Assembly: GCF_014190775.1 (NCBI RefSeq)
Contig: NZ_JACHVP010000004.1
Coordinates: 407,124 to 471,123, forward strand
Source: Leifsonia aquatica
GTDB lineage: Bacteria > Actinomycetota > Actinomycetes > Actinomycetales > Microbacteriaceae
Direction of reading: 5' to 3'
DNA: 64,000 nt
Each line of letters starts with the position of its first letter. The stretch's first letter is position 1. Shown here in pieces: positions 2,322 through 22,442 of the stretch. Position numbers and translations under genes: made by a program. The notes under the pieces are model-generated. The model was given only the letters and a program-made list of their open reading frames with translations, had not been told where the DNA came from and did not search any database.

Positions 2322-3642
2322 ATGAAGCGGACTCTCGCGCGGATCAGACCGCGCACCTGGATCATCACGGCGGCCGTCGTGGTCGCGGTCGTCGGGGGTG
2401 GGGCTGTCTACTGGTTCGGCTTCGCCCTCCCGGCCCAGGCCACCTCCTCGCAGCCGGCCACCCGGACGGTGCAGGCCAGCACCCAGACCCTGCAGAAGAC
2501 GGTCAGCGCGACCGGCACGCTGTCGCCGACGGTGTCGGAGGACGTGAACTTCCTCCCCTCCGGCACGGTCACCGCGGTGAACGTCGCCGCCGGGGCGACG
2601 GTCACGGCGGGTGAGGTGCTCGCGACGGTCGACACCGTCTCGGCCAACGCGACCCTCCTGCAGGCCAAGGCGGATCTCGCCTCGGCGCAGGCGAAGCTCT
2701 CGGACGCGCAGGACGCCTCGACCGGCAGCACCGCCGACGTGGCGGCGGTCGCCGCGGCGCAGGCGCAGGTCACCTCGGCCCAGTCGTCCGTCGACACCGC
2801 GCAGACCGCGCTCGACGGCACCACCCTGGTCGCCCCGGTCGCGGGACTCGTCACCGCGGTGAACGTCGCGGTCGGCGACGCGGTCACCGGCACGTCCGGC
2901 AGCACGAGCAGTTCGAGCAGTTCGGGGTCCGGCGCATCCAGCGGGTCCGGCGGGTCCACGGGCGGCGGCGCGACCGGCGGCACGGGCACGACCGGCAGCG
3001 GGACCGGCTCCTCCACCTCCACCTCCACCGCGCAGTTCACGATCGTCGGCACCGGGTCGTGGGAGGTCGACCTCACCGTGAGCGCCTCCGACCTGAAGTC
3101 GATCGCCAAGAACGACCAGGTCGAGCTCTCCACGTCTGACAACGACTCCTTCTTCGGCACCGTGACCTCCATCGGCCAGCTGCCGTCGACCACGTCCGGG
3201 AGCGCCGCCTACCCTGTCGTCGTCTCGGTGACCGGGTCGCCCGAGAACCTCTACGACGGTGTGAGCGTGACGGCCGCGATCGTCTACGAGCGCCGCACCG
3301 ACGTGCTCACCGTCCCGAGCGCCGCGATCACGACGGCGAACGGGAAGTCCACGGTGACGAAGGTCGTCGACGGCAAGAACGTCACCACCGACGTCACCGT
3401 GGGTGAGACCTCCGGCACCGTGACCGAGATCACGAAGGGCCTGAGCTCCGGGGATTCGGTGCTCGTCACGGTCTTCACGCCCGGCTCGGGCGCCGGCACC
3501 GGCGGCTCGACCGGCCAGACCGGGCAGACCGGGCAGCAGGGGCAGTTCCCCGGCGGCGGCGAAGGCTTCACGGGAGGCGGCGAAGGCGGCCAGTTCCCGG
3601 GCGGCGGCCAGGGCGGCCAGACCGGGAACGGGGGCACCCGCA

Positions 3643-3650
<8 letters not shown>
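2322..3650 (+). CDS. MacA/HlyD-like membrane fusion (adaptor) protein
   Basis: 442 aa. One N-terminal membrane helix (about 13-33) is followed by the two halves of a lipoyl/barrel-sandwich domain (GTVTAVNVAAGATVTAGEVLA and the matching LVAPVAGLVTAVNVAVGDAV). These flank a short Ala/Gln-rich helical hairpin. A Ser/Gly/Thr linker, a beta-barrel domain and a Gly/Gln-rich tail follow. It begins an operon: the stop overlaps the ATPase gene by 8 bp. In Gram-negatives such proteins link an inner-membrane pump to TolC; here there is no outer membrane, so it probably acts as an external chaperone of the ABC exporter. Confidence 0.85.
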
Positions 3651-4349
<699 letters not shown>

Positions 4350-4353
<4 letters not shown>

Positions 4354-5582
4354 ACTGGAACGAGACCCTCCACACCAGCTGGTCGGCCATCCGCGCGCAC
4401 ACCCTGCGCTCGGTGCTGACCGTGCTGGGGATCCTGATCGGGATCGCCGCCGTCATCCTCACCGTCGGCCTCGGCCTCGGCACCCAGAAGGACGTGAGCG
4501 CGCAGATCAGCGCGCTCGGAAGCAACCGGCTCATCGTCTCGCCGGGCAGCAGCACCGACTCGAGCGGGGTGCGCGGCGGCTTCGGCTCGGGCACCACGCT
4601 GACCCTCTCGGACGCCGACGCTCTCGCGTCGAAGGTGAACGCCCCGGACATCGCGGGCGTCGCGGCCGAGAAGTCGACCCAGACCTCCCTCGTCTACGGC
4701 GACACGAACTGGACCACGACGGTGACCGGCGTGACGAGCTCGTGGCTGGACGTGCGGTCGCGGACGGTCGCGCGCGGCGCGTTCTTCACGGCAGCGCAGC
4801 AGTCGTCGGGCGCCCGGGTCGTCGTACTCGGCTCCGAGACGGCGCAGGAGCTCTTCGGCTCCGAGAACGTCGTGGGCCAGTCGGTGACCATCGGCAACAC
4901 CACCTACAGCGTGATCGGCGTGCTGGCGTCGGCCGGCTCCGACACGTCGAGCAACCTCGACGACGTCGCGATCGTGCCGATGACGACGGCCGCGGACGAC
5001 GTGATCGGCGGGACGAACACCTCCAGCGTCTCGACGATCTACATCCAGGCCGCCGACGCCGACCGGCTCAGCGCGGCCTACCAGGAGGCGCAATCGGTGC
5101 TGCTCAACGCGCACTCCATCACCAGCACCGACGACGCCGACTTCACGATCAGCAGTCAGGACGCCCTGGTCAGCACCGCGACCTCCGTCTACCAGACGCT
5201 GACCGTGCTGCTCACCGGCATCGCGGCGCTCTCCCTGCTGGTGGGCGGCATCGGGGTGATGAACATCATGCTCGTCTCCGTCACCGAGCGCACCCGCGAG
5301 ATCGGGTTGCGCAAGGCGATCGGGGCGCCGCCCGCGGCGATCCGCACGCAGTTCCTGGTGGAGGCCGCCATCCTCGGCCTGACCGGCGGCGTGCTCGGCT
5401 CGGTGCTGGGCGTGGCCGCGGCACTCGTACTGCCCGCGCTGATCGGCAGCTCGGTGGTCATCTCGCCCGTCGCGCTCGGCCTCTCCATCGCCGTCTCCCT
5501 CGCCATCGGCCTGGTGTTCGGCGTCTATCCGGCAGCGCGCGCCGCGCGCCTGGCCCCCATCGACGCGCTCCGCTCCGAGTGA
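4350..5582 (+). CDS. MacB/FtsX-family ABC transporter permease
   Basis: 410 aa. One N-terminal helix (about 22-45) is followed by a large extracytoplasmic MacB periplasmic-core domain and three C-terminal helices (about 285-400). The segment NIMLVSVTERTREIGLRKAIG is the FtsX/MacB signature. It starts at the ATGA overlap with the ATPase gene. Together they make a MacB-like exporter whose cargo could be a peptide, lipid or antibiotic; the sequence does not tell which. Confidence 0.93.
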
Positions 5583-16870: not shown

Positions 16871-17611
16871 ATGAAGCGCGCACTGATCGTGATCGACGTG
16901 CAGAACGAATACGTCGACGGCAACCTCCCCATCTGCCACCCGGATCTGATGACCTCCATCCCGAACATCGAGGTCGCCATGGATGCGGCCGCCGACCACG
17001 GCGCCGCCCTCGTGATCGTGCAGCACATCGAGGACGAGGGCGCACCGGTCTTCGCCCGTGGCTCGCACGGCGCGGCCCTGCACGAGTCCGTCGCCGACCG
17101 CACGCCGGACCACCTCGTCACCAAGACCGACGTGTCCGCCTTCCGCGGCACCGACCTCGAGGAGTGGCTGCGCGCCGGCGGCTACGACACGGTCACGATC
17201 GCGGGATTCATGACGCAGCACTGCTGCGCCGGCACCGCCCGGGATGCGCACGCGCTCGGCTTCACCGTGGAGTTCCTCTCCGACGCCACCGGCACCCTCG
17301 ACCTCGTCAACGCGGCGGGCTCCATCTCGGCGGACGCCCTGCACGTCAGCGTGCTGGTCACCATGGACTCCGAGTTCGCCGCAGTCGCCACCACCGAGGA
17401 GTGGACGCTCGCGGTCGAGGCCGGCGACAGCCTCCCTGTCTCGAACCTCTGGGACAGCACCGGCCACGCGCGGGTGCCGGGCAAGCACTCCGAGCTGCAC
17501 AAGCTCATGCGCGAGGTGCGCGCCGGAATCGACCGCGACATCGCCGCGGAGGAGTCGCACGAGCTCCGCAACACGCTGTACGTGGGCCAGGGCGGGTCGG
17601 CATCGCTCTGA
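16871..17611 (+). CDS. isochorismatase-family cysteine hydrolase
   Basis: 246 aa. Catalytic Asp9 (VIVIDVQNEY), Lys85 (VTKTDVSAF) and Cys118 (FMTQHCCAGTARDA) occur in the order of the family. Such enzymes hydrolyse amides or ureas such as nicotinamide, N-carbamoyl compounds or isochorismate; the exact substrate cannot be told. The last 60 residues extend beyond the core fold. Divergent from the sugar cluster and facing a repeat element at its 3' end. Confidence 0.88.
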   Translation: MKRALIVIDVQNEYVDGNLPICHPDLMTSIPNIEVAMDAAADHGAALVIVQHIEDEGAPVFARGSHGAALHESVADRTPDHLVTKTDVSAFRGTDLEEWLRAGGYDTVTIAGFMTQHCCAGTARDAHALGFTVEFLSDATGTLDLVNAAGSISADALHVSVLVTMDSEFAAVATTEEWTLAVEAGDSLPVSNLWDSTGHARVPGKHSELHKLMREVRAGIDRDIAAEESHELRNTLYVGQGGSASL

Positions 17612-17617
17612 CCCTCC

Positions 17618-17680
17618 CGACATTCGTGCCGAATGTCGTGAAAGCGCCGCCTAAAGTCGACATTCGGTCCAAATGTGCGG
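17618..17680. repeat. double-palindrome intergenic element, copy A
   Basis: Contains cgacattcg-tgc-cgaatgtcg (17618-17638) and acattcggtccaaatgt (17660-17676), centres exactly 40 bp apart, joined by a tgaaag..gcc..aaag linker. A second copy with the same layout lies at 19655-19715. Here it fills the gap between two converging genes and may also end transcription. Confidence 0.75.
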
Positions 17681-17686
17681 AGGGTG

Positions 17687-19645: not shown

Positions 19646-19654
19646 GCGCCTGCG

Positions 19655-19715
19655 AGATTTGGACCAAATGTCGTGAAAGTGCGCGCCAAAGCCGACATTT
19701 GGCACAAATGTCGGC
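19655..19715. repeat. double-palindrome intergenic element, copy B
   Basis: agatttggaccaaatgt (19655-19671) and cgacatttg-gca-caaatgtcg (19693-19713), centres 40 bp apart as in copy A at 17618. The linker (tgaaagtgcgcgccaaagc) aligns directly with copy A, while the two palindromes align best in swapped order. It lies between the ECF gene and the SDP-type operon. Confidence 0.75.
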
Positions 19716-19771
19716 GGGGTCGCCGCCCCACGGAGCGCGCCATCGCGGAAGCAGCTCCCGCGAGTCGGATT

Positions 19772-20110
19772 TCAGGCTTCGATCTTCTTCGCGGCCAGGC
19801 TTGCCGCGTATGCAGCTGCGCCTGTCCCACAAAAGGTCAGCGCAACGCCTGCAGCAAGCAGGATCATCGACGATGCCTCCGAATCCACACTGAGCGCAAT
19901 GATCTCGAGAGGGAGCACCAGCAGCACCGTGATACGCGATGGCCACACGGCAGCTTCGTGCCCTCGCTTCCAGGACGCGGCGTTCTTTCGAACTTCGTGA
20001 GTTCTGATGCCCACCACCGAATTCCGCCGCAGCTTCCCTCTGGCAGCGAGCTCGACGACCACATCGGCAGCGATGACTACGACAATGATCACGGGCGCCA
20101 TCAATATCAT
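19772..20110 (-). CDS. sdpI: short SdpI-family membrane protein, putative immunity protein
   Basis: 112 aa from ATG 20110, preceded by gggagaac and overlapping the sdpB stop (ATGA). Helices lie at about 3-22, 58-76 and 83-104. Between the first two is the SdpI-family signature: RRNSVVGIRT, then SWKRGHEAA (residues 28-54). Bacillus SdpI is about twice as long and protects against SDP; here only the signature domain remains. Last gene of the toxin operon, so immunity is the natural inference, though not shown. Base composition is lower in GC than the flanks. Confidence 0.75.
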   Translation of the reverse strand: MILMAPVIIVVVIAADVVVELAARGKLRRNSVVGIRTHEVRKNAASWKRGHEAAVWPSRITVLLVLPLEIIALSVDSEASSMILLAAGVALTFCGTGAAAYAASLAAKKIEA

Positions 20111-21072
20111 GAGAGTTCTCCCGCGCTCGCAGAGGCTACCGCCCTCGCGGACGGGGTCCTGCGGGAATTGCAAGCGGCAGCTATCTTTCGCCAATCACGT
20201 GCCGCGACAACGCGCTCGCTCCGCGTCTGTGGGCCCGCCGCGATTGCTGTGGTGCCGATCATGATCAGCGCGAAACTCCACAGCCCGATCGACAGGATGA
20301 TGAAGACGTGGAGCATCACGTCGAGCGTCAATGCCCATCGCCGCCAGCGGTAGTGACCGAGGATGCTCACCCCGATGGCGAGCTCTATTACGATCGCTCC
20401 CCACGAGAGTGCAGCAACTAGCATGGGAACGCTGGTGATGTTCTCGAGCACGTCACGGACCACGCCTGAGGCGCCGAACATCGAACTTCGCGCGTAGTAG
20501 TACTCGGCGGAACCATTCAGCCAGGCCTCCGTGCCGAACTTCGCGATCGCACTGTTCAGATAGACCACGGCGACCTGAATTCGGATCGCGAGCAAGAAGG
20601 CCGCGGATACTCCCGCCGCGAACGGATGCAGTGGCTCCGGGCTTCGTGACCAGATGGATCTGCGACCATCGGACAGGCAGAGTGGGACAAGAAGCAGGCA
20701 GACGATACGCGCTACCTGGTCACCGCCGTCCGGCAGCGAGATGCTCAGGCCAATCGAGAGACTCACCCAGGCGTGGGGAATCGCTGTCCATCTCGGTCGC
20801 CATCCGCTCACGACGAGGAGCAAGACCGCAATCATGATCCATCGGCGCCAATCCTGCGATACAGCTTCACCGCCGACGCAATACAGCGTGACTACTCTCA
20901 CGCTTTCACAGGCAGGTCCATCTCCTTGCCCGGCTACTGGCTGGAGAAGTGCCGCAGGAGATGTGAACGCCAGTATGGTCAACTGCGCAATGGCGATTAC
21001 GGTTCGGCCGACCGCAAACCATCGGGTTCGAAAGTCGAAGGTGGAGAGGCGTCTAATCAGGCGCGTCGTCAT
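20107..21072 (-). CDS. sdpB: SdpB-family multipass membrane protein, SDP maturation
   Basis: 321 aa from ATG 21072 (agaggaaa before it; start shares one base with the sdpA stop). About seven or eight helices. An HTTM-like core has the motif VVYLNSAIAKFGTEAWLNGSAEYYYARS. Length equals that of Bacillus SdpB, which together with SdpA converts SdpC into the active peptide. A longer frame start at 21207 lies within sdpA and is rejected. GC is visibly lower than in neighbouring genes. Confidence 0.82.
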   Translation of the reverse strand: MTTRLIRRLSTFDFRTRWFAVGRTVIAIAQLTILAFTSPAALLQPVAGQGDGPACESVRVVTLYCVGGEAVSQDWRRWIMIAVLLLVVSGWRPRWTAIPHAWVSLSIGLSISLPDGGDQVARIVCLLLVPLCLSDGRRSIWSRSPEPLHPFAAGVSAAFLLAIRIQVAVVYLNSAIAKFGTEAWLNGSAEYYYARSSMFGASGVVRDVLENITSVPMLVAALSWGAIVIELAIGVSILGHYRWRRWALTLDVMLHVFIILSIGLWSFALIMIGTTAIAAGPQTRSERVVAARDWRKIAAACNSRRTPSARAVASASAGELS

Positions 21073-21644
21073 CACGGTTTCCTCTTCGGCTCCGCGCAAC
21101 TGACGTGTACGCGCGCGATCTGTTGGATCTGCGATCGCTGCACACCGTCGAAGTCTCGATACGCCCACGGTGTCGGTTTTTCGCCTGTCACAAACGCCGC
21201 ACCGCAAATCGTTCGCACGAATGCATCGTTTTCGACGCTCTGGGTCTCGGCGCCCGACGCTTCGCTAAAACAAATCTCGCGATCCATCGGACACTCGTGC
21301 CAATCAGTGATCTGCGATGCGATCAACGCCAACTCCGGACCTTGAGCTCGCTGATTGCGCGACAGCCCGAATGCGTTCTCTACTCGTGTCTGCGGAGTCA
21401 CTAGGAGGGTCTCGCCTGTTCGAGCGTCGTAGACACCGATCTCGGACTCCTCCGGAGACTTGGTGAAGAACGCCCAGCCCTGCGGAACGGTCATCGCTAC
21501 ATATTCACGAACTTTGTCCCGGCCTTCCGGATTGAGGACGTTGCTCGGCCAACCGGCGTAGGCCGACACGAGGAACGCCGGCGCGAGGAGACAAGTTGCT
21601 AGGCCGAACCCGAGAAGTCGGCTTCGGTCGGCCCGTGTAACCAT
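21072..21644 (-). CDS. sdpA: SdpA-family antimicrobial peptide system protein
   Basis: 190 aa. An N-terminal membrane helix (about 9-31) is followed by the SdpA hallmark VPQGWAFFTKSPEE and a soluble extracytoplasmic or peripheral domain. Several cysteines (WHECPMDREICF, TICGAAF, HVSCAEP) could form disulfides if exported. In Bacillus SdpA is required with SdpB to mature SdpC. The start is 3 nt after the sdpC stop and has no good ribosome site of its own, so it is probably translated by coupling. Confidence 0.85.
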   Translation of the reverse strand: MVTRADRSRLLGFGLATCLLAPAFLVSAYAGWPSNVLNPEGRDKVREYVAMTVPQGWAFFTKSPEESEIGVYDARTGETLLVTPQTRVENAFGLSRNQRAQGPELALIASQITDWHECPMDREICFSEASGAETQSVENDAFVRTICGAAFVTGEKPTPWAYRDFDGVQRSQIQQIARVHVSCAEPKRKP

Positions 21645-21647
21645 GAT

Positions 21648-22301
21648 TCAGAGCGTTCGAGCTATCGTCGCCGCGAATGCCTGGAGGTCGAAGTCTTTTG
21701 CGTCCTTGTCGGGCATGTAGTAGACCGCATAGACAGGAACTGCTACAGCTCCGACCACAGCTGCAACCACGACCGCCACAGCGCTTCCGATGAAGAACCA
21801 GATCCCCACTACGCAGCGTCCGACCGCGGCTCCAGTGTCTTGAGCAGGAGCGAAAGATTCTATGTCGGCCCGAAACTGGACAATTGCAGCTTCGACAGCG
21901 AAGGGATCCCCGGACTGAAGTGGGATCGTCACCAAATCGTGGAACCCCGGGTCCGCTTCGTAAAGCGCCTCGAGGACCGACTCATAGGCGGCTTGAGGCT
22001 GTTCCGGTGCCTTGACAGGCACGAGCTTCTCGGCGAGACCGGGATGTGCATCGGCAATACGCCCTCGTCCTGCAAGGAAAAGCATGACGATGTCCAGATC
22101 GTTGTACGTCGAGGCGGCGGTCTGGATCTCACTTCCCGAGGCGACCGGCGCCGGGTGTAGCACCGTGTTCGCTGATCCTTCCGCAGCAACGGCCGGTCCG
22201 CCCGACATCGTCATCGCGAATCCGACAGCCGTCACCATCGCAGCGCCCATCGAAGCGAGGCGGCGTGGTCGGCGGCCGCGTCTCATTTTGTTGGTGGCCA
22301 T
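21648..22301 (-). CDS. sdpC: SdpC-family antimicrobial peptide precursor
   Basis: 217 aa from ATG 22301 (gagtgaggg before it). A signal peptide covers about 1-40 (RRGRRPRR, hydrophobic, AVAA). The pro-region has SdpC-type sequence YNDLDIVMLFLAGRGRIADAHP. The C-terminal part has a long hydrophobic Val/Ala/Gly segment (about 158-196) that begins at Cys163, placed like mature SDP in Bacillus SdpC. Bacillus SDP has two cysteines; here only one is present. A charged tail (PDKDAKDFD...) follows and would be removed. First gene of the operon, preceded by an AT-rich promoter region. Confidence 0.82.
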   Translation of the reverse strand: MATNKMRRGRRPRRLASMGAAMVTAVGFAMTMSGGPAVAAEGSANTVLHPAPVASGSEIQTAASTYNDLDIVMLFLAGRGRIADAHPGLAEKLVPVKAPEQPQAAYESVLEALYEADPGFHDLVTIPLQSGDPFAVEAAIVQFRADIESFAPAQDTGAAVGRCVVGIWFFIGSAVAVVVAAVVGAVAVPVYAVYYMPDKDAKDFDLQAFAATIARTL

Positions 22302-22344
22302 GAAATCCCTCACTCCATTGTGTGTAGTACGGATATTTATGACC

Positions 22345-22372
22345 ATACGGTAAATTTTAGATTCGGACAACG
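22345..22372 (-). promoter_or_regulatory. candidate promoter of the SDP-type operon
   Basis: Minus strand: TTGTCC (22372-22367), 17 nt, TATGGT (22349-22344 by this reading). It stands in an unusually AT-rich stretch 43 bp upstream of the sdpC start. Sigma-70-like but imperfect; no repressor palindrome is obvious. Confidence 0.45.
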
Positions 22373-22398
22373 GTCTTGACGCCCTAGGGGCAGCGAAA

Positions 22399-22425
22399 GG
22401 CCGGCACCCTCAACGGATACCGGCC
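22399..22425 (-). terminator. terminator after hspR
   Basis: On the minus strand GGCCGGTATCC and GGGTGCCGGCC form an 11 bp stem with GU pairs and a 5 nt loop, followed by TTTCG. It lies 17 bp past the hspR stop and separates the chaperone operon from the sdp promoter. Confidence 0.7.
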
Positions 22426-22442
22426 GAAAAATCGAAAGCCGC

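Follow-up and report, generated by a model that had tools for sequence, protein, structure and literature searches.

A predicted SDP-type antimicrobial peptide operon, likely gained by horizontal transfer, beside hspR in Leifsonia aquatica

Four reading frames on the minus strand (22301-19772) of the window, the 64-kb stretch of Leifsonia aquatica DNA analysed here, belong to the families SdpC, SdpA, SdpB and SdpI. These are sdpC (21648..22301, 217 aa), the predicted peptide precursor; sdpA (21072..21644, 190 aa), a putative maturation partner; sdpB (20107..21072, 321 aa), a membrane protein with a predicted fold like the membrane domain of human gamma-glutamyl carboxylase (GGCX); and sdpI (19772..20110, 112 aa), a predicted immunity protein made of an SdpI domain alone. 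The original prediction had assigned the four genes to these families, and profile searches place three of them over the curated cut-offs: SdpA scores 114 bits against TIGR04034 (cut-off 53.1) and 112 bits against PF17418 (cut-off 25), SdpB 244 bits against TIGR04033 (cut-off 178.4), and SdpI, the one PF13630 match in the whole genome, 35.5 bits (gathering cut-off 28.2). The 217-aa precursor also has a family match, so that none of the 217, 190 and 321 aa proteins is left without one. The assignment of SdpC is significant (E 4.7e-13, SdpC residues 61-216 aligned with positions 2-171 of the 172 of TIGR04032), but its 49.3 bits are about half of the curated cut-off of 99.2, and we therefore regard it as a divergent relative rather than as a member of TIGR04032. 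All of 48 actinobacterial precursors match this profile at E 0.001, and 7/48 reach about its cut-off, as judged by an E-value calculated to be equivalent to it. Such sub-cut-off scores suggest why the precursor often stays annotated as 'hypothetical protein'.

The genes are closely packed, with a gap of 3 nt between sdpC and sdpA, an overlap of 1 base between sdpA and sdpB, and one of 4 bases between sdpB and sdpI. This tight spacing suggests that sdpC-sdpA-sdpB-sdpI are read as one transcript. Of the four overlapping minus-strand genes initially described, the strand and the A/B and B/I overlaps hold, whereas sdpC and sdpA are separated by their short gap. By eye, sdpC starts at an ATG with GGAGTGAGGG upstream of it, and the region 5' of the gene (22302-22370) is AT-rich in appearance. 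An AT-rich promoter had been proposed there; the stretch does look AT-rich, but a scan upstream of sdpC for sigma-70-type promoters returned no site. Between hspR and sdpC, inside the block discussed below, a GGCCGG/CCGGCC hairpin was seen by eye at 22399-22425; it is missing from the empty sites of relatives and could be a terminator of the hspR transcript.

The SdpC precursor is laid out as a likely signal peptide, a middle domain, a hydrophobic stretch at about residues 162-198, and a tail. The signal peptide (residues 1-40; 22182..22301, minus strand) was recognized by eye from a basic start, a hydrophobic run and AVAA. The predicted peptide core, residues 162-198 with approximate ends (21708..21818, minus strand), is hydrophobic and conserved, and contains the one cysteine that SdpC has beyond its signal peptide. 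When compared with four relatives that are 63-66% identical to SdpC overall, 31-32 of the 37 core residues are identical and residues 179-195 are unchanged, while identity amounts to 59-65 of 97 residues in the preceding domain and to 10-13 of 19 in the tail. As the core is conserved more than the rest of the protein, selection seems to keep the peptide itself. In the Bacillus SDP peptide, a C-x5-C pair forms a disulfide. SdpC has no C-x5-C, and its single cysteine rules out an SDP-like disulfide inside one peptide. Since C-x5-C occurs in just 7/48 actinobacterial precursors, the SDP disulfide is not general in the phylum. The motif is also present in L064, excluded from the 48 for its cut frame, and four more precursors (L023, L103, L099 and L100) contain two cysteines that are spaced x4 or x6.

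A block of 2,724 bp (19719..22442) comprising the operon is absent from two close relatives, G016 and G002, where its flanks nearly adjoin. In G016, whose HspR is identical to that of the window and whose aligned flanks show 93-95% DNA identity, only 3 bases separate the positions matching window bases 19718 and 22443, and in G002 only 4 separate those matching 19722 and 22443. The block was therefore either gained in this lineage or cleanly lost in both relatives. Its GC content is 0.606 versus 0.701 for the whole window, lower than in any of 613 equally long stretches sampled every 100 bp across the 64 kb, and the third-position GC of its genes is 0.65-0.70 versus 0.90-0.98 in hspR, dnaJ, grpE, dnaK and the ECF gene. 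These values favour gain over loss. A comparison with sister genomes had been suggested as a check on the proposed acquisition, and the empty site in two of them, the low GC already noted for the block relative to its flanks, and its patchy presence all bear the proposal out: the block was likely gained by horizontal transfer. By eye, we saw no integrase, transposase or target duplication at its junctions. The gene on the high-coordinate side, hspR, has a close homologue in 28/28 genomes of the genus, and in the other six genus genomes with a strong SdpB the latter lies on another contig or at least 73 kb from hspR, which suggests separate arrivals. The spot itself is variable within the genus, as in G010 and G026 other DNA, about 6.7 and 2.9 kb long up to the next shared gene, lies 3' of hspR (other genes at L059 2343-9081 and L060 2277-5223, respectively).

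Next to the block, a pair of palindromic repeats at 17611-17685 and 19653-19713 flanks the ECF operon. With up to 3 mismatches allowed, a pattern based on this repeat occurs 13 times in the genome, against 0 for its reversed control. One copy stops six bases short of the insertion and is present in relatives without the block too; the repeat might act as an operator, or be a short mobile element.

Far from being conserved in all relatives, SdpB has a patchy distribution. It is found at E below 1e-40 in 7/28 genomes of the genus, and two further genomes match weakly, near 1e-9. With the threshold set at E 1e-20, and counting the window itself in each case, it is present in 15/398 genomes and 12/85 genera of the family, in 13/396 genomes of the order (three weak only, without SdpC or SdpA), and in 4/396 genomes of the phylum. 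One genus, likely Streptomyces, has SdpB relatives in 28/295 genomes, 19 of them over the cut-off. Relatives also occur on 12 plasmid records, and none on phage records. The nearest named SdpC and SdpB are those of Leifsonia shinshuensis. G018, another member of the genus with a genome of 2.6 Mb, has an SDP locus (L016) in which sdpB is interrupted by a stop and the sdpA frame is truncated. Four loci with weak SdpB matches and neither SdpC nor SdpA (L104-L107) have instead a preceding protein of 250-263 aa with one hydrophobic helix; these are perhaps other HTTM-type pairs unrelated to peptides.

We examined 59 loci, the window included, and could detect SdpC, SdpA and SdpB together in 49; the other ten (L073, L075, L086, L090, L091, L095 and L104-L107) lack a detectable C or A, in part because the DNA covered is short. 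All 49 actinobacterial loci have the order C-A-B on one strand. The C-A-B-I order was noted from the outset as unlike that of Bacillus, and this is borne out. C-A-B is not peculiar to the present genome; the loci are not independent draws, however, and the order is a pattern, not a law. Two actinobacterial plasmids would fit it if the 'hypothetical protein' preceding SdpA is SdpC, and two Bacillota plasmids have the annotated order A-B-C. Other genes may follow sdpB. In L012 it is an asparagine-synthase-family gene (3204-5009, minus strand; PF00733, 97.5 bits), which we take to be perhaps part of a second, lasso-kind peptide cluster, and a similar frame was seen by eye after sdpB in L063. A conserved gene of about 240-250 aa follows sdpB in L020 (6863-7618) and L021 (6971-7687), from Herbidospora and Nonomuraea; the L020 copy has no Pfam match, and we presume a resemblance to LmbU-type regulators.

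Concerning immunity, SdpI is present in 5/7 genus genomes with SdpB versus 4/21 of the others (p 0.02), and a model search finds it adjoining 8/49 SDP loci. The model was built from four of these eight (the window, L013, L015 and L017), all of which also match PF13630. In seven others of the 49 loci, the SdpI slot downstream of sdpB is occupied by a same-strand gene for a PH-like protein: L016 5283-5834, L022 6803-7366, L024 6804-7271, L064 2400-2930, L068 1013-1474, L071 971-1720 and L061 2797-3756. Six of the seven, seen by eye, served to build the PH-like models, by which L061 and also L075, outside the 49, were found. A simple count, L061 excluded, gives about two membrane helices in five of the proteins and three in the longer L071 frame. 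Three weaker matches lie on the opposite strand (L084, L087 and L089). Neither the SdpI nor the PH-like models matched in 37 control loci (176 kb, partly overlapping and mostly from this genus). Among precursors with four cysteines, 4/5 are accompanied by a PH-like gene, the exception being L066. In L061, one protein combines the PH-like part with a weakly matching DUF1648 domain (E 4.4e-5, below the cut-off), and this same domain comes after SdpI in L072. SdpI and a weak DUF1648 match form two neighbouring genes in L015 (6773-7641) and one joined gene in L072 (2360-3142), the weak DUF1648 match stands alone in L069 (2244-2813), and the window keeps the SdpI part only. The PH-like membrane proteins are candidates for a second immunity family. 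Neither candidate is found in more than half of the 49 loci, for which the flanks examined often span only about 1.5 kb per side.

In its predicted model (pLDDT 86.8), SdpA has a single helix at the N terminus together with a small alpha/beta domain, and no fold stood out when the model was compared with solved structures. Across 74 sequences, there is no variation at F59, F60, G93, R96, C147 and C183, and almost none at C118 and C125.

The profile and predicted fold of SdpB match GGCX, in its membrane half only: the 321-aa protein spans GGCX residues 46-327 and stops where the GGCX membrane domain ends, with TM-scores of about 0.5 for the predicted structure. In the HMMER alignment, where GGCX residue numbers derive from the chain offset, SdpB Lys178 (20539..20541, minus strand) falls on the catalytic Lys218, and Trp184, Tyr171, Gly187 and Phe267 on Trp223, Tyr211, Gly226 and Phe299. 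Lys178, Trp184, Tyr171, Glu230, His100, Asp135, Arg137 and Gln166 are invariant in 65/65 SdpB sequences. The GGCX quinone-site residues F294 and N290 are not kept, being aligned with SdpB I262 and I258, and the Glu-binding N159/H160 fall outside the aligned stretch. As the luminal propeptide-binding domain of GGCX is absent, we do not file SdpB as GGCX proper. It scores 25.3 bits against PF05090 (HTTM), below the gathering cut-off of 27.7, and precomputed annotation assigns an HTTM domain to 23/67 of its relatives.

Taken together, the modelled fold and the alignment of Lys178 with Lys218 lead us to favour an enzyme over an exporter for SdpB. The enzymatic step is weakened by the loss of F294 and N290, the missing luminal domain and the TM-scores; moreover, mature Bacillus SDP is not known to carry any modification besides its disulfide. 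A broader proposal, which we advance tentatively and consider to have a minor share of the probability, is that a quinone-coupled enzyme carries out the maturation of SDP-type peptides. SdpB would be a stripped-down vitamin K carboxylase, partnered by SdpA, that acts on SdpC by means of Lys178 and membrane menaquinol and so releases or modifies the toxin core, and the immunity slot would be interchangeable between SdpI and a new PH-like family. If true, the same maturation chemistry would underlie the cannibalism toxins of bacteria and the clotting of human blood. In the open-licence literature we found no link between SdpB and HTTM proteins, carboxylases or vitamin K, although a subscription paper may already state it. 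The SdpB result is the part of this study most worth a bench test.

We put at about 0.8 the probability that the window carries an acquired sdpC-sdpA-sdpB-sdpI operon that makes, matures and gives immunity to a short hydrophobic peptide killing related bacteria by membrane breach, an antibacterial function that we infer from homology. SdpC would be exported via its own signal peptide and processed jointly by SdpA and SdpB, the latter probably a GGCX-fold enzyme in which Lys178 would act as base on a membrane quinol. The hydrophobic core would then be released, with one cysteine and without the internal disulfide of SDP, and by analogy with SDP would enter target membranes and dissipate the proton motive force, while SdpI would protect the producer. 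Counting against this explanation are the score of SdpC below its family cut-off, the lack of a promoter-like site, and the lack of a mobility gene at the junctions by eye.

It is possible, if doubtful, that SdpB is instead an exporter or membrane chaperone with an inherited carboxylase fold, SdpA and SdpB moving or holding SdpC while a separate protease cuts it. The available text of PMC3924187 calls SdpAB an exporter family, and the two substituted quinone-site residues would fit such a role. However, the invariance of eight residues in every SdpB is more typical of an active site, SdpC itself carries a likely signal peptide, and HTTM proteins of linaridin clusters are thought, in the accessible part of PMC9927463, to be modification enzymes. 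We consider it unlikely that the operon works but that its peptide mainly either targets kin, through cannibalism or in developing colonies, or serves as a signal, rather than acting on competitors. Bacillus SDP does act on siblings and shape biofilms (available text of PMC13343845), but SdpI lies in the same block as sdpC, so carriers of the block would be protected, and no sdpR-like repressor was seen that could split the population; neither point is decisive. Less probable still is a silent or decaying block: the absence of a sigma-70-type site and the G018 copy with its interrupted sdpB would agree with it, but the four frames of the window are intact and tightly spaced, and the core is nearly unchanged among relatives much more divergent overall. 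An acquired operon for an antibacterial peptide is the reading that we prefer. Strains that do and do not carry the block form natural pairs in which the targets of an actinobacterial SDP-type peptide could be sought.

The operon resembles the B. subtilis systems sdpABC-sdpRI (SDP) and yitPOM/yitQ (YIT) in combining SdpA, SdpB and an SdpC-type precursor with a signal peptide and a C-terminal hydrophobic stretch, together with a dedicated membrane immunity protein, here a predicted one. According to the available text of PMC6818787, the C-terminal stretch is particular to each SdpC group of B. subtilis; YIT, a paralogue of SDP in which this stretch differs, is a toxin that is secreted and has an immunity protein of its own, and YitQ does not resemble SdpI. 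The window differs in having the order C-A-B-I, versus A-B-C with a separate sdpRI in B. subtilis (same source), in its one-cysteine precursor, and in an SdpI domain without DUF1648. SdpB shares with GGCX the predicted membrane-domain fold and the aligned lysine, and departs from it in the luminal domain and the two quinone-site residues. Linaridin-cluster HTTM proteins (PMC9927463, as far as its text is available), likened here by description, are likewise HTTM-type membrane proteins beside a secreted antibacterial peptide, although the window SdpB scores under the HTTM Pfam cut-off. Papers differ on SdpA and SdpB, which are an exporter family in the accessible text of PMC3924187 and required for maturation in that of PMC13343845; the GGCX-like fold and invariant lysine turn their role into a testable question. 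Within the same phylum as the window, an sdpABC-like cluster is described on a genomic island of Brevibacterium aurantiacum cheese strains (PMC5719810) and SdpC homologues in Streptomyces (PMC3924187), both likened by description only and from the accessible parts of these papers, which report neither a gene order nor an SdpI nor a fold for SdpB. Since SDP-type loci are already known in actinobacteria, the window holds a divergent member of this group rather than a new system.
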